Source: a virus. Taken from it: a DNA stretch of 64,000 nucleotides. Shown piece by piece: positions 15,104 to 63,127 of this stretch. Below the pieces are notes generated by a model. That model was not told the origin of the DNA. It saw only the letters and a list, made by a program, of their open reading frames with translations, and searched no databases. Location of the stretch: positions 85,191 to 149,190 of IMG/VR virus record IMGVR_UViG_3300005613_002762, one strand, 5' to 3'. Position 1 is the first letter of the stretch. Each line of letters opens with the position of its first letter. The translations under genes were made by a program, and so were the position numbers.

Positions 15104-15148
15104 ATAGAAAACGAAAAAAGTTCTATTTTTGAATATAAAAGCACAAAA

Positions 15149-15180
15149 AAAAGGGAAAAGACCTAAATCATTTCCCTTTT
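15149..15180. terminator. Intrinsic terminator
   Basis: Stem AAAAGGGAAA / TTTCCCTTTT with a 12-base loop, between the 70-aa gene and the scaffold gene. On the minus strand it would end the transcript from the protease and 70-aa genes before the scaffold promoter. Confidence 0.7.
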
Positions 15181-15201
15181 ATTAGAGTTATTGTGTTTGG
15201 T

Positions 15202-15414
15202 TTACCCTTCGATTACCTCATCAATTTTCGATTCAACAATTGCAGTGATTCTCCAATCCATAGAATAGTTCTCATAAACCTTTGTTACTTTTGCTTCAAC
15301 ATCGGTAGGTGAATACCCTCTAACCAATTTTTCTTCTCTCATTTTTTTTATCTTTCCTGTGTTCTCATCAACCATATCAGTTGTGATTCTTGCTATAAAA
15401 TACTTTTCGTCCAT
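15202..15414 (-). CDS. Small DUF4494-like protein, 70 aa
   Basis: MDEKYFIARITTDMVDENTG with later RGYSPTDVEAKVTKVYENY resembles the short DUF4494-type proteins common in Bacteroidota genomes and their phages, function unknown. It starts 10 bases after the stop of the prohead protease and is followed by a terminator, so it is probably co-transcribed with the protease. Confidence 0.65.
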   Translation of the reverse strand: MDEKYFIARITTDMVDENTGKIKKMREEKLVRGYSPTDVEAKVTKVYENYSMDWRITAIVESKIDEVIEG

Positions 15415-27358: not shown

Positions 27359-29398
27359 ATGTTAGAATTTATGGACGATAGCAACGAAAAATCCAAGAAA
27401 AAAACAGATAGTGGAACACCTGTTTTAGATAACTTTAGTAAAGATTTAAATAAATTAGCTCAAGACGGAAAATTAGATCCCGTTATTGGTAGACAAAGTG
27501 AGATATTTAGAATTGCTCAAATTTTATCAAGAAGAAAAAAGAATAACCCAATTATTATTGGTGAACCAGGAGCCGGAAAAACCGCAATAGTGGAAGGTTT
27601 AGCAATGATGATCCATAACGGAGAATGTCCCAAAAATTTAATGGATAAAAGGATTGTTTCTTTAGATATGAATTCATTGGTTGCAGGAACCAAATATCGA
27701 GGTCAGTTCGAAGAAAGAATGAAAGCGATAATCGAAGAACTACAAGTTGCCCCAAATATAATTTTATTCATAGATGAAATTCATACTATGGTTGGTGCTG
27801 GAAACAGTTCAGGATCGTTAGATGCTTCAAACATTTTAAAACCAGCGCTTTCTCGAGGAGATATACAATGTGTTGGAGCAACAACTTTAGATGAATATAG
27901 AAAACATTTTGAAAAGGATGGAGCTTTAGATAGACGATTCCAAAAAGTCATTGTCGACCCTTCTTCAAAGGAAGAGACATTTGAAATTCTAAAACAAAGT
28001 AAATCAAAATATGAAGACCATCACAAAGTTTCTTATGATGATAAAACTTTATGGATATTTGTTGAGTTAGCTGATCGATATATTACAGATCGTGAGTTTC
28101 CCGATAAAGCGTTTGATATTTTAGATGAGGTTGGGTCGAGAATGCAAGTTGATATAAAACTACCTGAAGAAATTGAAAAATTAAAGGATGAGGCGGCAGC
28201 AATTAAACAAGAAAAATATACTGTAATTAAACAACAAAAATACGAACTTGCCGCAGAACTAAGAGATCGAGAAAGAAATGTTATTTCGAAACTTGAGGAA
28301 GAAAAAAAGAAATTTGAACTTAGTCTATTAACTAGTAAAAGAAGTATTCCTGAAGAATTGATATATGAAGTTGTTTCAAACATGACAAAAATTCCAATTT
28401 CAAATATTAATTTAGACGAAAGAAACTCTCTAATTAATTTGAATGATAATTTGAATTCAAAGGTGATTGGTCAAGAGGAAGCCGTTAATAAAATTGTCAA
28501 ATCGATTAGAAGAAATAGAATCGGAATTAAAGATCCAAATAAACCAATTGGTTCATTTATTTTCTTAGGTTCTACTGGTGTTGGTAAAACATATTTGGCA
28601 AAACAATTGGCAAAAGAAATTTTTGGAAGTGAAGAGAACATGATCCGTGTGGATATGAGTGAATACCAAGAAAAACACACCATCTCTCGTTTAATTGGTT
28701 CACCTCCAGGATATGTTGGTCACGATGAAGGTGGTCAGTTAACCGAACAAGTTAAAAACAAACCTTATTCTGTTGTATTGTTTGATGAGATTGAAAAGGC
28801 ACATAAAGACATCTTTTCAACATTACTTCAGTTGTTAGACGATGGTCATATCACAGATTCTTTAGGTCGTAAGATCAACTTCAAAAACTGCTTAATCATT
28901 ATGACATCTAACATTGGTGTTAAGAAATTACAAGATTTTGGAACTGGAATGGGATTTCAGACCAGCAAAAGTGAAGTGGTTAAAGAAGAAGAAAAACAAG
29001 AAGTCTTAAAAAAAGAAATGAAAAAGTTTTTCGCTCCTGAATTTTTAAATAGAATTGATGATGTTGTTATCTTTAATTCTTTGGACAAAGAACATATTGA
29101 TGTTATTACAAAATTAGAAATTGACAAACTCTTAAAAAGAGTGTCTGAAAAAAACTACCACTTCACATATGATCAAGACTTAGTCGACTATATTTCAAAA
29201 GTTGGATTTGACGAAACATTTGGAGCAAGACCAATCAAAAGAGCTATTCAAAATAATATTGAAGATCTAATTTCAGAAAAAATCCTAATGATGGAGATTG
29301 AAGAACATAAAGACTATGTTTTAAAAATTGAAAATGATGTGGTGGTGGTATCAAATAAAGAAGAAAAAGTAAAAAGAGGTAGAAAAAAGAAAGAATAA
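27359..29398 (+). CDS. ClpC/ClpA-like AAA+ unfoldase
   Basis: A 679-residue Hsp100 protein with two AAA+ modules and no N-terminal Clp repeat domain. D1 has Walker A GEPGAGKTAIVEG near 67 and Walker B ILFIDEIHTMVGAG near 136. A short middle region contains KYELAAELRDRERN, a UVR-like ClpC feature. D2 has GSTGVGKTYLAK and VVLFDEIEKAHKD. The segment GMGFQTS in D2 is at the place of the ClpP-docking loop ([LIV]-G-[FL]), so it may feed host ClpP. The lost N-domain suggests altered adaptor choice. It probably acts with the divergent UVR protein. Confidence 0.92.
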   Translation: MLEFMDDSNEKSKKKTDSGTPVLDNFSKDLNKLAQDGKLDPVIGRQSEIFRIAQILSRRKKNNPIIIGEPGAGKTAIVEGLAMMIHNGECPKNLMDKRIVSLDMNSLVAGTKYRGQFEERMKAIIEELQVAPNIILFIDEIHTMVGAGNSSGSLDASNILKPALSRGDIQCVGATTLDEYRKHFEKDGALDRRFQKVIVDPSSKEETFEILKQSKSKYEDHHKVSYDDKTLWIFVELADRYITDREFPDKAFDILDEVGSRMQVDIKLPEEIEKLKDEAAAIKQEKYTVIKQQKYELAAELRDRERNVISKLEEEKKKFELSLLTSKRSIPEELIYEVVSNMTKIPISNINLDERNSLINLNDNLNSKVIGQEEAVNKIVKSIRRNRIGIKDPNKPIGSFIFLGSTGVGKTYLAKQLAKEIFGSEENMIRVDMSEYQEKHTISRLIGSPPGYVGHDEGGQLTEQVKNKPYSVVLFDEIEKAHKDIFSTLLQLLDDGHITDSLGRKINFKNCLIIMTSNIGVKKLQDFGTGMGFQTSKSEVVKEEEKQEVLKKEMKKFFAPEFLNRIDDVVIFNSLDKEHIDVITKLEIDKLLKRVSEKNYHFTYDQDLVDYISKVGFDETFGARPIKRAIQNNIEDLISEKILMMEIEEHKDYVLKIENDVVVVSNKEEKVKRGRKKKE

Positions 29399-29400
29399 AT

Positions 29401-29431
29401 TTGGTAAATTAAATTTTGTCGTGTATATTTG
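29401..29431 (+). promoter_or_regulatory. Host-type promoter
   Basis: TTG at 29401-29403, 20-base spacer, TATATTTG at 29424-29431, followed by TAGAA. Drives the secreted protein starting at 29455. Confidence 0.75.
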
Positions 29432-29454
29432 TAGAAATAATAAAACAATATACG

Positions 29455-29877
29455 ATGAAAACAATTTTGGCAACCTTAACTTTTTTACTCAGTTTTTTAA
29501 CCTTTAGTCAAAAACTAATTATTCACGTCTTTGAAAGACAAGAAATGGTGTCTTTTTCAAAAACGACAATCGATTCGGTATTATTGAGTCCTGATATTGT
29601 GATGGATAAAAACACCGATTACACCAAATATGTGATTGATCTTAATCAAGAGACTTCAACGTATTTTCTAAATAATGAAGAACTTAGCACTTTACCAATC
29701 AAATGTCAAAATCTTGGTAATGGAATTTTAAAAATTAACATTATGGAAGAAGGTTTTGATTATGGACTATTAGTTCAGACGGATTACCAAAATGAATCAG
29801 TCACTTGGTTTTGGTTTACTGAATATTCAACAACAGTGAAAAACATCACTAAGTTTAAATTTGAGAAACCTTCATGA
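29455..29877 (+). CDS. Secreted protein with signal peptide, 140 aa
   Basis: The start is set at ATG 29455 because the promoter -7 element overlaps the upstream part of the open frame. The N-terminus KTILATLTFLLSFLTFSQ is a clear Sec signal with cleavage near FSQ, as usual in flavobacteria. The mature part is a small beta-rich protein of unknown function. It is a host-type moron: own promoter, own terminator. It may act in the periplasm or at the surface, for example in superinfection control (inference). Confidence 0.75.
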   Translation: MKTILATLTFLLSFLTFSQKLIIHVFERQEMVSFSKTTIDSVLLSPDIVMDKNTDYTKYVIDLNQETSTYFLNNEELSTLPIKCQNLGNGILKINIMEEGFDYGLLVQTDYQNESVTWFWFTEYSTTVKNITKFKFEKPS

Positions 29878-30497: not shown

Positions 30498-31010
30498 ATG
30501 AAATCATTAGTAATTTTATTTTTATTCTTTTTCTCTTTTGGTTTAACCCAAACTCTTAATGAGTTGGTTATTAAAAAAATAAACAACTATAGAAAAGAAT
30601 ATGGATTACCTTCATTATTATATGCACCTGAAGCTAAATTGGCGAATGATCAAATGTTGAATTATATGACTCAAACTTGCACCGTTCCGTTAGATCATTC
30701 TCAAAGAATACCAACCAGTTTTCCTGTCACATTTGAAACATTCCAAGAAAGATATGAATACCTTTATAAAAACACATCATGTATTGCTCTTGGTGAAAAT
30801 TTATGTTCATTCGTTGATTTAAAGACAGATGAGGAAAGAGCAAATATGATACTTAATTTATGGAAAAATTCTCAATCCCATAATGCACTATTATTAAGTT
30901 TAAGATTTACCGGTATTTGTGTTGGTAATAAAACTACTAATAAGATTATTATAGATGGTATAACATTTAATGATAAGATTCGTTATTGTGTCTTAACAGT
31001 GTATAAATAA
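30498..31010 (+). CDS. Secreted CAP (SCP/PR-1) domain protein
   Basis: A 170-residue protein. Residues 1-18 (KSLVILFLFFFSFGLTQ) are a signal peptide. The rest follows the CAP pattern: INNYRKEYGLPSLLYAPEAK, a His in DHSQ, GENLCSF, and WKNSQSHNALLL. CAP proteins are secreted or surface proteins of unclear activity, sometimes membrane- or ligand-binding. In a phage this is an unusual cargo, probably exported by the infected cell. It has a host-type promoter. Confidence 0.8.
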   Translation: MKSLVILFLFFFSFGLTQTLNELVIKKINNYRKEYGLPSLLYAPEAKLANDQMLNYMTQTCTVPLDHSQRIPTSFPVTFETFQERYEYLYKNTSCIALGENLCSFVDLKTDEERANMILNLWKNSQSHNALLLSLRFTGICVGNKTTNKIIIDGITFNDKIRYCVLTVYK

Positions 31011-39653: not shown

Positions 39654-40172
39654 TTAATCTTGGGATTTCTTTGGATACATTATATGTTCTAAATAACTTG
39701 TGTATTCAAAATTTAAAACACTAAGAACGTCCTTAATCCCTGATTCTATTTCTGAATTTTCACCAACTAAGTCATATTTTCTTTCATAATGATCAATTAA
39801 TTCTTCGAAAAGTTTCCCAATTTTTTTAATGTTTGTATTTTTCAAATCAATCAACTCTTCTTGTTCGTTTTTTGAAAGTTCGTCATATTCGATTTCATCA
39901 TCAAATCTTTTTGATGGTCTTCGTGTATATTTAGACATGTTCTTTTTTCTCCAAAGATTATAACTGTGTTGGATATCGTTATAACGTAAATAATTTTCTG
40001 GATTCATTTTTCCTAAAATATGTCCATTGAGTAATTTTAACAAATCCATTTTAAAATTTTCAATTTCTTCATCTGTAATTACTTTGTAAATTTCAGAGAT
40101 GGATCCTTCCATAATCACACGTCTAATAATACGAGCAAGATCTGATTCTGTAAGTCTTATAATTTTTTTCAT
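39654..40172 (-). CDS. Packaged-type protein, LTESDL leader, 172 aa
   Basis: The leader LTESDLARIIRRVIME followed by GS is the clearest example of the family; cleavage would fall after residue 22. The mature part is helical and strongly charged (RRPSKRFDDEIEYDELSKNE). Late-type motif ATATTTATAAT lies upstream. Function unknown. Confidence 0.7.
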   Translation of the reverse strand: MKKIIRLTESDLARIIRRVIMEGSISEIYKVITDEEIENFKMDLLKLLNGHILGKMNPENYLRYNDIQHSYNLWRKKNMSKYTRRPSKRFDDEIEYDELSKNEQEELIDLKNTNIKKIGKLFEELIDHYERKYDLVGENSEIESGIKDVLSVLNFEYTSYLEHIMYPKKSQD

Positions 40173-41122: not shown

Positions 41123-41503
41123 CTAAAATTTTATTATAACCCCTGTCGTATGAAAAATCTGACTATTACTTAATCCTGTGATAAATGCTCGTTGAAATAC
41201 TTTCACATTAGGTGATATGTAAAATCTGGCTCTTATATCATAGGATCCTGCAAATATAATGTCATCTACGGTAAGATCAGAAAATCTGTCTTGAAATGGA
41301 ACCCTTCTAATTTTGGAGCTAATAGATAATTGAAAATTATCATACCCAAGTCTATAAACATAATCACTTTTTGGTTTAAATGTTATTTTACTAAAATTTG
41401 TTCTTGCAATTGATTGGTAGTCAATTGTTGAATATTGGTTCATCAAAGGTTGAGAAAAACCAATAGACGATAAAAGTAAAAAAATTATAAGTATTTGTTT
41501 CAT
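41123..41503 (-). CDS. Secreted or outer-membrane protein, 126 aa
   Basis: Signal peptide KQILIIFLLLSSIGFSQ with cleavage near FSQ, then a beta-rich body with alternating residues (YVYRLGYDNFQLSISSKIRR, IIFAGSYDIRARFYISPNVK). The pattern and C-terminal Phe (GVIIKF) resemble a small outer-membrane beta protein. Probably inserted into the host envelope; possible superinfection or receptor masking role (inference). Confidence 0.7.
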   Translation of the reverse strand: MKQILIIFLLLSSIGFSQPLMNQYSTIDYQSIARTNFSKITFKPKSDYVYRLGYDNFQLSISSKIRRVPFQDRFSDLTVDDIIFAGSYDIRARFYISPNVKVFQRAFITGLSNSQIFHTTGVIIKF

Positions 41504-47640: not shown

Positions 47641-48144
47641 ATGAGACACTTTTTTTATTTACTAGTATCAATTTTTATTTTATCCTCTTGTGTTAAATAC
47701 GGAGAACCTGTTTCACTTAGTTTAAGTGGCGAATATCGAATCGATAAGATTACTTATGAAAATAGAGATAACTCCAATTTGAACCAAGTGTTTTATCCTG
47801 GTGATTTATATGTAAATCAAAGTGAGACAAAACCTTTGGATTCGATCGCAGTTGGTTTTACAAGATTAGCTCTTGATTATGCGGTTATTTACTTTGATCC
47901 AGTTGACGATCCATCTACAGGATCGACTACATGGACCAAACAATACACTTATATGGTTCAAGGACATAATAATGTTTACGATTTGGGCTATATCTCATTT
48001 AACTACGAAGGAACAAAACGAGTTTGGAAAATCATTGATGATGGTATGGAAAGTCTTGTTATCAGAACTTCAGGTAGTTATGACTATGGAAATAACACAA
48101 GTGGTGAAACAACGACAATGTTTTTAACTCGAGTTGGTCCTTAA
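47641..48144 (+). CDS. Lipoprotein, 167 aa
   Basis: Signal MRHFFYLLVSIFILSSC with lipobox L-S-S-C, lipidated Cys at 17, then a beta-rich domain like small lipocalin-type Bacteroidota lipoproteins (SLSGEYRIDKITYENRDNSN). It has a host promoter and no packaging leader, so it is made in the infected cell and anchored in the envelope. Phage lipoproteins often block superinfection; this is inference here. Confidence 0.78.
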   Translation: MRHFFYLLVSIFILSSCVKYGEPVSLSLSGEYRIDKITYENRDNSNLNQVFYPGDLYVNQSETKPLDSIAVGFTRLALDYAVIYFDPVDDPSTGSTTWTKQYTYMVQGHNNVYDLGYISFNYEGTKRVWKIIDDGMESLVIRTSGSYDYGNNTSGETTTMFLTRVGP

Positions 48145-52002: not shown

Positions 52003-52009
52003 ACTATAT

Positions 52010-52032
52010 GATATTTATTAATATAAATATTA
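52010..52032. promoter_or_regulatory. Divergent late-type motifs
   Basis: Overlapping motifs on both strands: GATATTTATTA on plus (52010-52020) and AATATTTATATTAA on minus (about 52018-52032), between the divergent packaged-type genes at 52002 (-) and 52056 (+). Confidence 0.5.
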
Positions 52033-52055
52033 AATGCCTTGTAAAAAATAATTGT

Positions 52056-52589
52056 ATGAGAACAATAAAAATAACTGAAAGTCAAATTCAAAAAATTGTA
52101 AGATCTGTTTTAACAGAAGAAGAAATGGAATCTTCTAAATCAAAAAAGAAAGATAAAAAGGCTCGTTGTATTCCTGAAAACGTAATACCTTTAGATGAAA
52201 TAGTTGGGAGATCCGATGAATTTTCAAAATATACACCAGGTATAACAAAAAGAGCCGCAGGTGTAAACTCTATGGTTGACACACTTGGTATTTTAAACAA
52301 TTTACGTTTGTTTAAAGATGTAAAAGATGGTGGATCACATTTGGCGTATGAAATGATGAATCACTTAAACAGATTTAGAAATAAAAACTATTATGACGAA
52401 ACTTCAGGTGGTTGTAATAAGGCCATGGACAAAGTAATTGAATTGTATAAAGAAAATGAGCACGGAACCGAACTTGTTAAAGATATTGAGAGGGTTTTAA
52501 AGTTACAAACTAAAGAAGATGAGTATACACCCTCACCAAGAGCTAAAGAGTATCTTAAACAATGTATAAACTTGATTAAAGGACTTTAA
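52056..52589 (+). CDS. Packaged-type protein, ITESQ leader, 177 aa
   Basis: Start at ATG 52056 because the leader MRTIKITESQIQKIVRSVLT then EEE begins there; the frame extends upstream into the promoter region. The mature protein is basic and helical with two cysteines (KARCIPENVIPLDEIVGRSD, SGGCNKAMDKVIELYKENEH). Followed two bases after the stop by the small membrane protein. Function unknown. Confidence 0.7.
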   Translation: MRTIKITESQIQKIVRSVLTEEEMESSKSKKKDKKARCIPENVIPLDEIVGRSDEFSKYTPGITKRAAGVNSMVDTLGILNNLRLFKDVKDGGSHLAYEMMNHLNRFRNKNYYDETSGGCNKAMDKVIELYKENEHGTELVKDIERVLKLQTKEDEYTPSPRAKEYLKQCINLIKGL

Positions 52590-53308: not shown

Positions 53309-53968
53309 TTAATAACCCATAAAGTGTTTTACAAGTTCAGTTGAGAGTCTATTTACCCTATTTGTTGCTGATGCACCCGTAATTGTTTTATTATTACGTT
53401 CTAAATCAGTAACGGCAGCTGAAATCATGATATTTCTTACATTTTCAGACATTTCTAAGATTTTTTTTATCTTTTCTTCATCATTATCGTCCAATTCACG
53501 TTGCATTCGGTGTAAATTGAAGTATGCTGTCAGATAATCCTTAGTTTGACCTAAAAATTGACCTGATTGGAACATATTTACAATCCCTGACTGTCTAATC
53601 AATTCCAAATACTCCATAATATACTTCAAATCGGACTTTTTAAAGAGTCTTGACCATTCATGTCGATTAATTAACTCATCTAAGTCAGTAATTACACGAT
53701 TTCTAGCTTCATTTAGGTCATTTTGCGTGAATTCGGGGTCTAATATCCAAGAATCCGCCTCAGGAAGTAAAGAAAGGGTGCTAATTACCTTACCATCGTC
53801 ATCTAACCACTCTATATTATACATATAATTGGATCCACCACCAAAAGATGGGGCTTGACCAATACTTTTAACTCTTCCTTTGGTTCCTGTATCAATATCT
53901 TCACCTGGCATGTAGATTAAAACGATGCGATCACCTTCTTTTAACTCAGGATTTTTCTTTTTACTCAT
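53309..53968 (-). CDS. DUF4314-like domain protein, 219 aa
   Basis: The first 70 residues (LKEGDRIVLIYMPGEDIDTG and TKGRVKSIG) match the SH3-like DUF4314 pattern (GDRI-x-LI-x-M-x-D-x-x-x-GT-x-G-x-V). The C-terminal 150 residues are helical. Its role is unknown. GATATTTATTAATATG joins the late-type motif directly to the start codon. Confidence 0.68.
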   Translation of the reverse strand: MSKKKNPELKEGDRIVLIYMPGEDIDTGTKGRVKSIGQAPSFGGGSNYMYNIEWLDDDGKVISTLSLLPEADSWILDPEFTQNDLNEARNRVITDLDELINRHEWSRLFKKSDLKYIMEYLELIRQSGIVNMFQSGQFLGQTKDYLTAYFNLHRMQRELDDNDEEKIKKILEMSENVRNIMISAAVTDLERNNKTITGASATNRVNRLSTELVKHFMGY

Positions 53969-53983: not shown

Positions 53984-56440
53984 TTACCTAATAAGTGTAA
54001 AACTTCCTAAAAATTCTTTAATTTCATCAGTTTTAGGAACTTTAAACCTCATTTTCCACGTATAAACCCCATCTTGACAAGGAATATTGTTATATGTCCC
54101 ATCCCAACCTGTATTTGGGTTAAAAGATTCCCATATAATCTGTCCCCATCGGTTGTAAATCACAAAAGTATAGTTAAATATGTCAACTCCTGAGGTAATT
54201 ATTGGTTTAAATACGTTATTTCTTTCGTCTCCATTAGGTGTAAAGGCATTTGGGATGTAAAATACTTCATTTGGACACAATTCTAAGGTTATATTGAACG
54301 TTTGAGGGTTAGAAACACACCCATTGTCCCATCTTACACCCTGAAATGTGAATATTCCGTCCATATCCCATGTTACACTTAGAGTATTATTGGTAATTGT
54401 GTCTTCGAATAGATACCATTGGTTAAATCCACCACTCACGGACACTAAATCAAAGACATCACTTACCGTATCACCCTCACATATTTGATGATATACATTA
54501 TTTTCGTCAACAATCCCATTTGTCATTGGTAATATTATTGGTCTTGGGTATACTTGAACATTTATTGACGTATCAAACCAACATCCTGACTGAGTATAGT
54601 TGTAATTTACAAGATCAACACCAATAAAACCATTATTAGGACAATATTGATCGTTCCATACATTCATTCCACTGAAAATACCACCCGAAGGAGTTGCAAT
54701 TAGGTTAATACAATTGTCATATTCACAAAATGGACCCACTTGAGTGATCACAGGAAGAATATTTAACACATAAATGGTAAAAGTTTCAGGTGATGACTGA
54801 CATCCAAGTTGATTTTCACCAATAACAGATAAAGTATTAGTATAAAGACCACCATTTACACCAGTTACATCCAAATTTAGTTGATTTGTCCCTTGTCCTG
54901 TGGTGATATTCCCCATCGTGTTAGTCCATACGTAGTTTAGGTTAGGAAAAACACTTGAGACGTTATATAAATTGGTTGTGGAGTTAAAACAAACCGTGTC
55001 TAACCCTGTAATTGGGTTGATTGTCACCATTGGTGGATCAACTAACGTTGTTGTTTGCGTTGCAGGGCAGTTATTTGCGTCTGTAACGGTTACAGAATAA
55101 GTTCCTGAACATAAATTTGTTGTCGTTTGATTGGTTTGTCCGTTATCCCAAAGATATGTGTATGGTGCAAGACCATCAATAGGATTTACAATCGCAGATC
55201 CATCACAATATCCAAAACAAGTTGGATCTGTTGGTGTAATTGTTGGTAATTGTAACGGTGCCGGGTTTAATAATGTTGATGTTCCATTATAACTACAGCC
55301 AGTAGCGTCCGTTAGTGTAAATGTGTAGGTTCCTGAACAAAGATTATTTAACGTTAGTGTGTTTCCACCATTATCCCAACTTATATTGAATGGTTGAGTT
55401 CCGCCAACAGGACTAACAACGATAGTTCCATCACAACTATTATTACATAATGGATCTGTTGGTATTATATTTGGAACAGGAAGGTTTGGTGTGGGTAAAA
55501 CAAATACGGTATCAGGTCCCAAGTTTCCTCCACCAACATTACACGCCGACCATCCAGCATTACAAGTGGGATATACAGGAACACAAGTGTAATTAGCCCC
55601 TTGAGCCGGTGGAGTTACCGTAATTTGTAAACCAGTTCCAATTGGATTAGGATTACCCACTTGAAACCATGTGTAAATTGGGTTAACGACAGGTCCTGAT
55701 GGTGTATAACGATATGAATTGTTTACGGTTGTCCATTGTGTTGAGTTTCTACCAGGAACCGTAACAGCTTGAGTCCCTCCTGCGTTGTGAATACCCTGAA
55801 CTGCAGTTCCACCTGCCCATTGAGGACAATTTGGTTTATTTGCAATGTGATTTTCTATCACATTAGAAGACTCATATAACACAATATGAAAAGTTCCTTG
55901 TAAATTGGTGCAAGAAAACATTCTAACATTAATCCAACTAACCACGAGTTTACGACAAGGTGCTGTTCCTTGAACTTGATATCTGATTTGACCCCCCGAT
56001 AAACCAGGATTCCAATCTTGCCATGGACCCATAATACAATTTTTTGGAATATTAAACCCAGCACTTGGTATTGCTGCCGATGTGAATGTTGCTGGTTGAG
56101 CTCCAGCTCCCAAAGAAACCCATCCATTAGAACCAACTCTAAATTGTGTATAAGTTTGTCCGTAAAAACAAAACGTAAAACCAATATTATATACACCTGA
56201 TTGTGAGTCATCACTTAAAAAAACTTGAGTTCCATTGTTTACTTGAGCAACATATGGAATGTTTGTAACATTGTAGTTCGTTGTTTGATTAGGTTGAGAT
56301 CCAGGACCACATTGTGATAGATCGGCAGTTAAAGTTGCCTGTGTAACCCCACAAGGTAAAGTTTGGTTAGGTCCCAAATAAGGACAATACTGCGAATAAA
56401 TAAAAAGGGGGAATAAAAATAAAAGTAATAAGTTTTTCAT
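53984..56440 (-). CDS. T9SS-targeted surface protein with type-B (gliding-motility) C-terminal domain
   Basis: An 818-residue protein. Residues 1-16 (KNLLLLFLFPLFIYSQ) are a flavobacterial signal peptide. An N-terminal beta domain follows, then two SprB-like repeats (DPLCNNSCDGTIVVSPVGGT; DPTCFGYCDGSAIVNPIDGL), Ig-like regions, and a C-terminal domain FYIPNAFTPNGDERNNVFKP, then FVIYNRWGQIIWES, WDGTYNN, DGVYTWKMRFK and LGSFTLIR. The last part is the CHU_C/type-B sorting signal recognised by the host type IX system. So the protein should be exported and displayed on the host cell. It is highly unusual as phage cargo. Confidence 0.92.
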   Translation of the reverse strand: MKNLLLLFLFPLFIYSQYCPYLGPNQTLPCGVTQATLTADLSQCGPGSQPNQTTNYNVTNIPYVAQVNNGTQVFLSDDSQSGVYNIGFTFCFYGQTYTQFRVGSNGWVSLGAGAQPATFTSAAIPSAGFNIPKNCIMGPWQDWNPGLSGGQIRYQVQGTAPCRKLVVSWINVRMFSCTNLQGTFHIVLYESSNVIENHIANKPNCPQWAGGTAVQGIHNAGGTQAVTVPGRNSTQWTTVNNSYRYTPSGPVVNPIYTWFQVGNPNPIGTGLQITVTPPAQGANYTCVPVYPTCNAGWSACNVGGGNLGPDTVFVLPTPNLPVPNIIPTDPLCNNSCDGTIVVSPVGGTQPFNISWDNGGNTLTLNNLCSGTYTFTLTDATGCSYNGTSTLLNPAPLQLPTITPTDPTCFGYCDGSAIVNPIDGLAPYTYLWDNGQTNQTTTNLCSGTYSVTVTDANNCPATQTTTLVDPPMVTINPITGLDTVCFNSTTNLYNVSSVFPNLNYVWTNTMGNITTGQGTNQLNLDVTGVNGGLYTNTLSVIGENQLGCQSSPETFTIYVLNILPVITQVGPFCEYDNCINLIATPSGGIFSGMNVWNDQYCPNNGFIGVDLVNYNYTQSGCWFDTSINVQVYPRPIILPMTNGIVDENNVYHQICEGDTVSDVFDLVSVSGGFNQWYLFEDTITNNTLSVTWDMDGIFTFQGVRWDNGCVSNPQTFNITLELCPNEVFYIPNAFTPNGDERNNVFKPIITSGVDIFNYTFVIYNRWGQIIWESFNPNTGWDGTYNNIPCQDGVYTWKMRFKVPKTDEIKEFLGSFTLIR

Positions 56441-56503: not shown

Positions 56504-56701
56504 CTAATTTGAAGATTTTTTTTCTTTCCATTCAAGGTAAATGGTATGAAAAACCATTAAATTAATCAACACACAAAAACAAGTTTCTAAAATCCAATGC
56601 CAATCAACTTGAGTAACACCCATATGAATACCAAACCACATGAATGAACCATACTTATTCATTAACGTAACATACAAATACTTTAAAAATTCTTTCATCA
56701 A
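56504..56701 (-). CDS. Small membrane protein, 65 aa
   Basis: MMKEFLKYLYVTLMNKYGSF, then GIHMGVTQVDWHWILETCFC and VLINLMVFHTIYLEW: one or two hydrophobic helices, Trp/His-rich loop. GATATTTATTG lies just upstream. It follows the T9SS protein on the same strand. Unknown function. Confidence 0.6.
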   Translation of the reverse strand: MMKEFLKYLYVTLMNKYGSFMWFGIHMGVTQVDWHWILETCFCVLINLMVFHTIYLEWKEKKSSN

Positions 56702-57633: not shown

Positions 57634-58227
57634 TTATCTAAGTCTTTCTGATCTATCAGCGGCTCCTTTTAATGCCATAACTAAACCAGCAATCAATACT
57701 GCCGTGCTAACAGGTCCACCACCCATTTTGTCAACATAATCATGAAGTTGAACCATAAGTTCACCAGCGTCAGTATATCCCATTGCTTGACTAATCATTC
57801 CGAGCATTCCTGCTCCCATCATTCCAATACCTCCACGCATCATGGCTTTTTCTTTGAATGATTTCATTCTGTCTGAAATATCTTCTCTTAAAAACATTTC
57901 GGTCAAACCTTCAGTTTTTTGATTGATAACCATATCCTCAAGATTTTCGATTTCATCACTATCTAATCTTCTTAGTTTTCTTTTAAAGAAGTTAGCAACC
58001 GCATGAACAGTGTCTTCTTTTGACATCCCGTCATTTTCTTCATCATCTGACATACTCATGTCGTCTGACATACTCATGTCGTCTGACATACTCATGTCGT
58101 CTGACATACTCATGTCGTCTGACATACTCATGTCGTCTGACATTCTCATTTCTTCTTGAGTTTCTTTAACGAGTCTTCTTACTAAAGAATGAAACTCTGA
58201 TTCTGTAAGTCTAATTTTTCTTTTCAT
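57634..58227 (-). CDS. Packaged-type protein with MSDDMS repeats and membrane segment, 197 aa
   Basis: Leader IRLTESEFHSLVRRLVKE then TQEE. Residues about 27-57 are six MSDDMS units encoded by 18-base tandem repeats. The C-terminal region has two hydrophobic segments (GIGMMGAGMLGMISQAMG and STAVLIAGLVMALKGA). Could be an injected membrane protein. Late-type motif AAGTATTTATAAA upstream. Confidence 0.7.
   Translation of the reverse strand: MKRKIRLTESEFHSLVRRLVKETQEEMRMSDDMSMSDDMSMSDDMSMSDDMSMSDDMSMSDDEENDGMSKEDTVHAVANFFKRKLRRLDSDEIENLEDMVINQKTEGLTEMFLREDISDRMKSFKEKAMMRGGIGMMGAGMLGMISQAMGYTDAGELMVQLHDYVDKMGGGPVSTAVLIAGLVMALKGAADRSERLR
58044..58145. repeat. 18-base tandem repeats
   Basis: Six near-perfect copies of CATACTCATGTCGTCTGA (plus strand) encoding MSDDMS. 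No spacers, inside one gene, so not a CRISPR array. Copy number may vary between isolates. Confidence 0.92.
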
Positions 58228-58272: not shown

Positions 58273-59025
58273 TTATTTTATTATTTTATCACTCATAGGT
58301 AGTTTTAAACCCTTAGTTTTACCCCAATTATAGATTACCTTTTTAAGCTCACTTACATGTTTTGTTGGAACTTTAGTGCAAACTCTTGATTGCGATGTTT
58401 TTACGGGTATTGGATAGATATCATCTCTTTCAGGAAAATTTTTATCGTAAATTTTAGGTGATGTTCTTGTGTTATCACCAATGTCACCTTTAGGTTCAAC
58501 AAATAACGATCCTGCACCTACAATATCTAAAGTAACATTTTGATTTTCTTCTTTATCTGAATCCCCAACCGTATAGTTACCAGCAACAAATTTCAAGTTT
58601 GATAAACCTAAACCTTTCAAAAAGGAAATCATATTATCTCGTCTTTTTTTCGCCAACTCAGTATTCTTTTCCTTTGCTTGACTTGAGCTTGCAGGATATG
58701 ATCCCCAATCAGTGTTTGACGATTTTCCATTTACAGTTACAGTTCCACCACCACTAGATTGAATTTTTGTTAATAGAGTTACAATATCTTTTATTTTTTG
58801 ATTTGATTTATCAATTTGATCTTTACCTAACTTAAATACGTTTGATCCTGACGCACCAATTGTAATTGGTATATTTCTACCCTTGATTCTTTCCCAAGAT
58901 GCGGTATTAACATTTTTTGAGTTAATATCTGTCTGTAATGATAGTGGGATGATAGCGTCTTCAGAAATTATTTTTCTAACAATATTATTAAGTTGACTTT
59001 CTGTTATTTTAACTGTTCTATTCAT
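58273..59025 (-). CDS. Packaged-type protein with OmpA-like fold candidate, 250 aa
   Basis: Leader MNRTVKITESQLNNIVRKII then SE and DAIIP. The middle contains GGTVTVNGKSSN and later NTELAKKRRDNMISFLKGLG then NLKFVAGN, the spacing seen in OmpA_C peptidoglycan-binding domains (I-x-x-GH-x-D, N-x-x-L-x-x-x-RA-x-x-V). The key His/Asp are not obvious, so this is tentative. C-terminus basic (HVSELKKVIYNWGKTKGLKL). Confidence 0.65.
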   Translation of the reverse strand: MNRTVKITESQLNNIVRKIISEDAIIPLSLQTDINSKNVNTASWERIKGRNIPITIGASGSNVFKLGKDQIDKSNQKIKDIVTLLTKIQSSGGGTVTVNGKSSNTDWGSYPASSSQAKEKNTELAKKRRDNMISFLKGLGLSNLKFVAGNYTVGDSDKEENQNVTLDIVGAGSLFVEPKGDIGDNTRTSPKIYDKNFPERDDIYPIPVKTSQSRVCTKVPTKHVSELKKVIYNWGKTKGLKLPMSDKIIK

Positions 59026-60241: not shown

Positions 60242-60601
60242 TTACTTCTTCAAACGGTATATTTTATATAATTCTTTTTGAATGAGTATATCTGCGAAAT
60301 TTAATATTTTAGTTATTTGAGTGATTATGTCTTCTAACTCCTGTTTTTGAAAATCTTCCATATCTGATTCTGAAATTTTTAATTTAACTTCGTCAAATTT
60401 TTTTCTTATTTTTCTATCATTATTTATCTTATATTCTAACTCTTCTAAAACATCTTCCAGTTCGGATAAATATTTGCTGTAATAATAACCTTTACCTTTA
60501 AACCAACCCTTAACACCTTCCCATGTCGATTCTTGTAGATCTTCATTGATTACTCGATTTACAATTCTATTAATATCTGATTCTGTTAAATTATTTTTCA
60601 T
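60242..60601 (-). CDS. Packaged-type protein, LTESDI leader, 119 aa
   Basis: Start ATG 60601 (MKNNLTESDINRIVNRVINE then DLQES), with motif AAGTATTTACTAATATG adjoining. Body is a charged helical protein (YYSKYLSELEDVLEELEYKI). The leader is a textbook member of the family. Function unknown. Confidence 0.7.
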   Translation of the reverse strand: MKNNLTESDINRIVNRVINEDLQESTWEGVKGWFKGKGYYYSKYLSELEDVLEELEYKINNDRKIRKKFDEVKLKISESDMEDFQKQELEDIITQITKILNFADILIQKELYKIYRLKK

Positions 60602-60620
60602 ATTAGTAAATACTTTAATT

Positions 60621-61031
60621 TTATCTTTCAAAGTTAAAGTTATCTATTTTTTCCTTTAGTTCGTCACTTAGTTTTATTGAACTTTTTTCTTTATCTAAGG
60701 TTACTCTAACATAATCTGCACCAAAGAAGTATTGGAGTTCTTCTGATATACTAGTTGATAAATTAATTTTGAATCCATAATCATTAGTAAACGAAGACCC
60801 CATCAATTTAGCAGAAACCAAAAACCTTTTATCTCCATCAATAATTGTAACATCAACCATTAAATAATCATATAGTTCACCAACTGAGATCATTTGTCTA
60901 ACCCCTTTGATTTGAAACTGATAATCAAATTTTGTTTTCAAATCGAGACCTATTATAAGCCGACCTTCGTAAGTAAAGACCATGTCTTTAATTACCTTAT
61001 TAACTCGTTTTAATTTTTCTTTTGTATACAT
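60621..61031 (-). CDS. Hypothetical protein, 136 aa
   Basis: Alpha/beta protein (KVIKDMVFTYEGRLIIGLDL, then MISVGELYDYLMVDVTIIDG). No leader. It lies between two leader-bearing genes in a tight cluster on the minus strand. Not recognised. Confidence 0.65.
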   Translation of the reverse strand: MYTKEKLKRVNKVIKDMVFTYEGRLIIGLDLKTKFDYQFQIKGVRQMISVGELYDYLMVDVTIIDGDKRFLVSAKLMGSSFTNDYGFKINLSTSISEELQYFFGADYVRVTLDKEKSSIKLSDELKEKIDNFNFER

Positions 61032-62554: not shown

Positions 62555-63127
62555 TTAATTGTCGTATAATGGAGTTGTATTTTTATATGGTAACTCATAT
62601 TTAGGAAAATAAGCAATACACCTTCTTTTCAACATCAATTTACTAGCATCATCTAATTTAAAATTATGGTTTGCGGTTTTTAATCCATCAACACTTTTTC
62701 TTTTACCCCAACCTCTTCCACTACCACCACCAGGTAGTTCAGTTAAGCTATCCAATTTTTCGCAGTCAACATAATAACTCCAACCTTTTGGGTCTTTTAT
62801 GCTATTTTCGTAATTATTAAGTTTGGCATCTGAAACATAAATAATGAATTCACCATCGTTCGTTGCGTCTTTAATACTTATTTGTGTAATTGTTTCATTC
62901 CCTAATTTAAAATCTCTATATGCTTGAGATAACATCTTTGGATAAGTTTTATTTTTTTTTGTAGTTTCATCATATGTTGATATATCAACACCATTAATTT
63001 TTACAGTTTTTGTTGCCTCACCACCACCGCCGGCAGCAATAGGTTCTGATGCATCACCTTGTTCCATAATAACTCGTTTAACAATACGGGTTAAATCTCT
63101 TTCGGTTAGTTTTATAATTCTTTTCAT
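62555..63127 (-). CDS. Packaged-type protein, EQGDASEP family, 190 aa
   Basis: Leader IIKLTERDLTRIVKRVIME then QGDASEPIAAGGGG. The same QGDASEPIAAGGGG follows the cut site of the gene at 63464, so the two are paralogues in their front part. Mature region alpha/beta with ITQISIKDATNDGEFIIYVS and two cysteines. Function unknown. Confidence 0.72.
   Translation of the reverse strand: MKRIIKLTERDLTRIVKRVIMEQGDASEPIAAGGGGEATKTVKINGVDISTYDETTKKNKTYPKMLSQAYRDFKLGNETITQISIKDATNDGEFIIYVSDAKLNNYENSIKDPKGWSYYVDCEKLDSLTELPGGGSGRGWGKRKSVDGLKTANHNFKLDDASKLMLKRRCIAYFPKYELPYKNTTPLYDN

Follow-up and report, generated by a model that had tools for sequence, protein, structure and literature searches.

A widespread protein family of large phages with type B sorting signals for the host type IX secretion system and a possible role at the infected-cell surface

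Phage-encoded cargo of the bacterial type IX secretion system (T9SS) has been known since 2020, when proteins with type A sorting domains were described in Cryophage (Bellas et al., 2020, PMC7468147). These domains are found on an endoglucanase, a GH39 protein and a PA14 protein, which are highly variable and presumed to use the host system, and the authors suggested effects on inter-strain competition or superinfection. Here, we describe an 818-residue protein encoded in a 64,000-base stretch (the window, bases 85191-149190 of the 149,190-base IMG/VR viral contig IMGVR_UViG_3300005613_002762). It likewise carries a T9SS sorting domain, but in contrast to the Cryophage cargo this domain is of type B and is combined with a conserved nidogen-like head on an SprB/PKD stalk, in a family that spans many large phages and also occurs in tail operons.

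In Flavobacterium johnsoniae, SprB and other type B substrates share the Sec signal peptide, the SprB repeats and the type B C-terminal sorting domain (CTD) with the phage protein. Type B substrates require PorP/SprF-like proteins, which also anchor them (PMC9143113, PMC12618676). Three of the 12 F. johnsoniae type B substrates are not linked to a shuttle gene; these 'orphan' substrates share a shuttle and cross-talk occurs (PMC12618676), so an adjacent PorP/SprF-like gene is not a defining requirement. The phage protein is such an orphan without an adjacent sprF. It combines SprB repeats with a type B CTD and is not claimed to be SprB itself, which has 669 kDa and a different N-terminal head. 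Huge phages have been noted to encode proteins that are predicted at the cell surface and may influence how other phages infect (Al-Shayeb et al., 2020, PMC7162821), in a paper whose main text covers neither T9SS nor gliding. A published type B, SprB-like phage family was not found in the open-access literature searched (subscription papers and most preprints were outside the scope). The cargo idea itself is published, while a conserved and widespread family of SprB-like type B adhesins in large phages appears not to be.

Anatomy and sorting signals of the protein

The open reading frame (ORF) has its boundaries exactly at 53984 and 56440 and can be divided into the following features:

53984-56440, minus strand: whole gene, predicted phage-encoded T9SS cargo of 818 residues (ORF and translation, domain matches)
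56393-56440, minus strand: N-terminal Sec-type signal peptide, residues 1-16 (MKNLLLLFLFPLFIYS followed by Q; simple rule, kept in relatives)
55493-56392, minus strand: conserved head, residues 17-316, a cysteine-rich, weakly nidogen-like all-beta fold (alignment and structure model)
55028-55492, minus strand: stalk with two SprB repeats (PF13573), residues 317-471 (profile match; 0, 1 or 2 repeats in relatives)
54791-55027, minus strand: PKD-like domain (PF19408), residues 472-550 (profile match)
53987-54256, minus strand: type B T9SS CTD (CHU_C / TIGR04131), residues 729-818 (profile match)

All profile matches exceed their curated cut-offs: 45.3 bits for TIGR04131 at residues 729-818 (cut-off 35), 47.9 for CHU_C PF13585 (27), 50 for the two SprB matches (28) and 35 for PKD_6 (25). 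Together with the coordinates, they bear out the first-pass annotation, which had described an 818-residue protein with a signal peptide, SprB-like repeats and a type B CTD and had proposed the profile search for CHU_C/TIGR04131. TIGR04131 matched only once over the whole contig and in none of 14 control genomes. Signal peptides were called by eye and a simple rule, which gave the sequence MKNLLLLFLFPLFIYSQ for the window's copy. The two features that characterize type B T9SS cargo, a C-terminal TIGR04131/CHU_C domain and a Sec-type signal peptide, are thus both present.

These signals are conserved at both ends of the protein. Of 64 distinct complete ORFs recovered, all but L054, a remote and partial match, have the CTD at their extreme C-terminus, and nearly all of these 63 begin with a signal-peptide-like N-terminus according to the simple rule. 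Both TIGR04131 and CHU_C were matched by all 18 aligned relatives. Five CTD blocks are invariant in the alignment of relatives (PNxFTP..N, NRWG, WDG, G.Y and a C-terminal G), and they fit the loop/strand pattern of the secretion motifs in PMC12618676, as compared by description only.

A PorP/SprF shuttle (PF11751) was not detected in any of the 13 phage records searched, while the same search returned 5-20 copies in each of six bacterial genomes used as positive control; a host shuttle would therefore have to serve. Sixteen genomes from the order of the nearest bacterial relative encode 5-12 type B CTDs each, mostly 35-50% identical to the phage CTD. The anatomy, the conservation of both signals and the lack of a phage shuttle support what had been proposed at the outset, and we consider export by the host T9SS and display on the infected cell very probable.

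Across phages, the heads share 65-81% identity with that of the window's copy, and the identity of stalk and CTD falls to 45-50% between lineages. The proteins form three length classes (about 656-660, 729-758 and 812-830 residues), which differ by whole SprB repeats in the alignment. With a conserved head, a length-variable stalk and an anchor signal, this is the layout of a display protein. Because a full-length structure model resolved the head poorly, a head-only model was built with bacterial relatives, resulting in a confident prediction (predicted local distance difference test, 93.5). Relatives of the head among solved structures in the PDB were not found by sequence, and none was convincing by fold; the viral fold matches are several phage proteins, all of them uncharacterised. 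The nidogen-like family PF06119 gave weak matches in 14 of 77 head relatives (best 5.5e-4), with the window's own head unmatched.

Distribution and origin of the family

The window also codes for terminase, portal, maturation protease and major head protein, and the remainder of the contig for tail sheath, tail tube, baseplate hub, ribonucleotide reductase and a DnaB-like helicase, a gene set that identifies a contractile-tailed phage. A scan with the single sequence recovered 53 viral loci with relatives, and a scan with the alignment 187 IMG/VR stretches. About 13 other contigs, some of 270-290 kb, show synteny of the genes that flank the cargo gene. Median dN/dS (ratio of nonsynonymous to synonymous divergence) is about 0.12-0.23 in head, stalk and CTD alike, which indicates purifying selection. 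An assembly chimera with host DNA, which had been named as a possible refutation, or host contamination is excluded for practical purposes because of the syntenic flanks, the many viral contigs from multiple lineages, the copies in tail operons elsewhere and the purifying selection.

No isolated phage with a relative was found, and only three uncultured records matched the CTD. The huge phage LR745206.1 (634,780 bp) holds a relative together with several further T9SS CTDs (for example at 15124-15387, 27694-27921 and 578820-579077); four type B matches (three over the cut-off) and three type A matches (two over the cut-off) were counted in it. The huge phage LR756502.1 has several type-B-like CTD matches. 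Related phages often carry additional T9SS cargo, and the repertoire is wider than the 818-residue family.

Bacterial relatives of the head come overwhelmingly from metagenome-assembled genomes of Bacteroidota, in chromosomal settings. A few records labelled Pseudomonadota fall among Bacteroidota and have probably been misbinned. The chromosomal proteins (L060 with 817 residues, L063, L066 and L067) resemble the phage family in signal peptide, head (60-66% identity), general layout and type-B-like C-terminus, but differ in their chromosomal housekeeping context and form a separate group in the tree. At the loci inspected, no porP/sprF-like neighbour was recognised by eye, and phage flanks were not shared, bar one short 41% match. 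Since both these relatives and T9SS occur in Bacteroidota, the host phylum named in the first-pass annotation is supported.

In a 106-row tree the phage copies form one group (SH-aLRT support 98). The free search on 140 rows resulted in two label changes, and a constrained tree with all phages together reached a higher likelihood than the free tree (approximately unbiased test, p-AU 0.546), so that a single phage group nested in Bacteroidota surface proteins is not rejected. The simplest reading, though not proven, would be that the gene was captured once from Bacteroidota, in the distant past, and has since evolved in phages for a long time. Among relatives in tail operons (for example L029 and L044), synonymous divergence (dS) of the head is more than 1.5-fold that of the stalk in 75% of the pairs, and there are pairs whose tube genes are nearly identical while their copies of the cargo gene have diverged, which hints at recombination or module exchange.

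Gene neighbourhood and other features of the window

Of 76 distinct loci, about 30 have the cargo gene beside tail genes. Where the operon could be read, the order on one strand is sheath, tube, cargo gene, a 123-residue gene and baseplate hub, and the gaps measure about 75 and 19 bases. Judged from the operon position in this sister lineage, the gene is probably expressed late in infection, together with the structural genes. The window's own contig has sheath, tube and hub genes without the cargo gene, which is about 105 kb away, and in this lineage it is located among genes without assigned function. Two of its neighbours are recurrent:

53309-53968, minus strand: downstream neighbour of 219 residues after a 15-base gap, without a family match; usually kept beside the cargo gene within the window's lineage
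56504-56701, minus strand: upstream protein of 65 residues that includes hydrophobic stretches; 14 syntenic loci have a match to it, usually directly upstream

An FKBP-type peptidyl-prolyl isomerase (PF00254; 56735-57190) is encoded near the cargo gene in the window's lineage, and the neighbourhood also contains an IMP dehydrogenase/GMP reductase-like gene (PF00478; 50427-51395). Six otherwise unrelated proteins (39654-40172, 52008-52589, 57634-58227, 58273-59025, 60242-60631 and 62555-63127) share an N-terminal amphipathic motif similar to IKITESELxxIVRKVLxE, which resembles the T4-type capsid-targeting sequence. The strict pattern occurs in 7 of 157 contig ORFs (one doubtful) compared to 0.4 in shuffles, and looser cases were recognised by eye; a large number of proteins bearing the motif may be packaged into the capsid. 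Furthermore, four small proteins (30498-31010, 29416-29877, 41123-41503 and 47641-48144) have signal-peptide-like or lipoprotein-like N-termini, and one of them has a CAP/cysteine-rich secretory match that is weak and does not reach the Pfam cut-off. These N-termini suggest that the phage exports several proteins.

Possible function of the displayed protein

We propose that the protein is made late in infection, crosses the inner membrane by Sec via its signal peptide and would leave the cell through the host T9SS by means of the observed type B signal. As the phages examined carry no shuttle, a PorP/SprF-like protein of the host would hold it on the outer membrane, where the stalk (0-2 SprB repeats) and the PKD-like domain could present the conserved nidogen-like head. 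Either this head, or the occupation of the shuttle and gliding sites of host adhesins, may change the surface of the infected cell, and other phages would then adsorb less well. On the sequence data, a phage-owned host-surface protein that alters the infected-cell surface is the best overall explanation, to which we assign a probability of about 0.5. That superinfection exclusion or receptor masking is its main purpose can be put forward only tentatively, at slightly less than even odds. We favour this purpose because the host T9SS and gliding adhesins have been implicated in phage reception, with SprB/RemA as possible receptors and T9SS mutations conferring phage resistance (PMC13288928), and because a similar idea was proposed for the Cryophage cargo (PMC7468147). 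Two points weigh against it: a virion-associated role would also be compatible with the placement in tail operons, and superinfection exclusion fits late expression less well than early expression.

The main rival to masking or exclusion is the control of adhesion or gliding. Infected cells could become attached to one another, to uninfected cells or to surfaces; in another form, the protein would ride the SprB conveyor and alter gliding, which might aid the spread of progeny. The SprB/PKD stalk and the nidogen-like head do resemble adhesins, and the bacterial proteins that share this head have the same layout and are of surface type. However, not all type B substrates move and some are static (PMC12618676), and we regard this alternative as rather unlikely, although it deserves to be considered. 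A decoration of the virion tail or head, with secretion signals that are relics or with binding to virions outside the cell after lysis, is improbable. It would agree with the location of the gene in one lineage, where tail tube and baseplate hub enclose it, and with a weak PHROG match (E=3e-6) of the Ig-like stalk to a Hoc-like head decoration family. In contrast, the gene is far from tail genes in the window's lineage and others, and a Sec-exported protein leaves the cytoplasm, the site of virion assembly. A Hoc-like virion protein would be cytoplasmic and free of export signals, whereas here signal peptide and CTD are kept in essentially all complete relatives; they are conserved at both ends under purifying selection, as would not be expected of relics. 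The statement of the first-pass annotation that this is not a virion layout thus holds for the protein itself, but not for the position of the gene, which lies inside a tail operon in the sister lineage.

The existence of bacterial relatives with 60-66% head identity could also indicate a passenger, that is a host surface gene of no use to the phage, or host DNA that contaminates the assembly. This is contradicted already by the synteny and the selection and is highly improbable: the phage copies form one group on many independent viral contigs, phage synteny is conserved on both sides, dN/dS is well below 1, and the bacterial loci lack phage flanks apart from the short match mentioned above.

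Returning to a phage-owned protein at the host surface, a broader and distinctly speculative proposal, which we consider unlikely in this full form, is that large Bacteroidota phages share a dedicated display module that competes with SprB-like adhesins of the host for PorP/SprF shuttles and the gliding track and remodels adhesion, motility and phage receptors late in infection. Small lipoproteins or enzymes are the usual means by which phages change the surface of their host. In this family, by contrast, a long adhesin of host style is retained by many large phages, and its address is a secretion and gliding machine specific to one phylum. If true, the family would give direct access to the ways in which Bacteroidota phages control receptors, gliding and contact between cells, and the presence of the gene would mark a T9SS-bearing host for uncultured phages.
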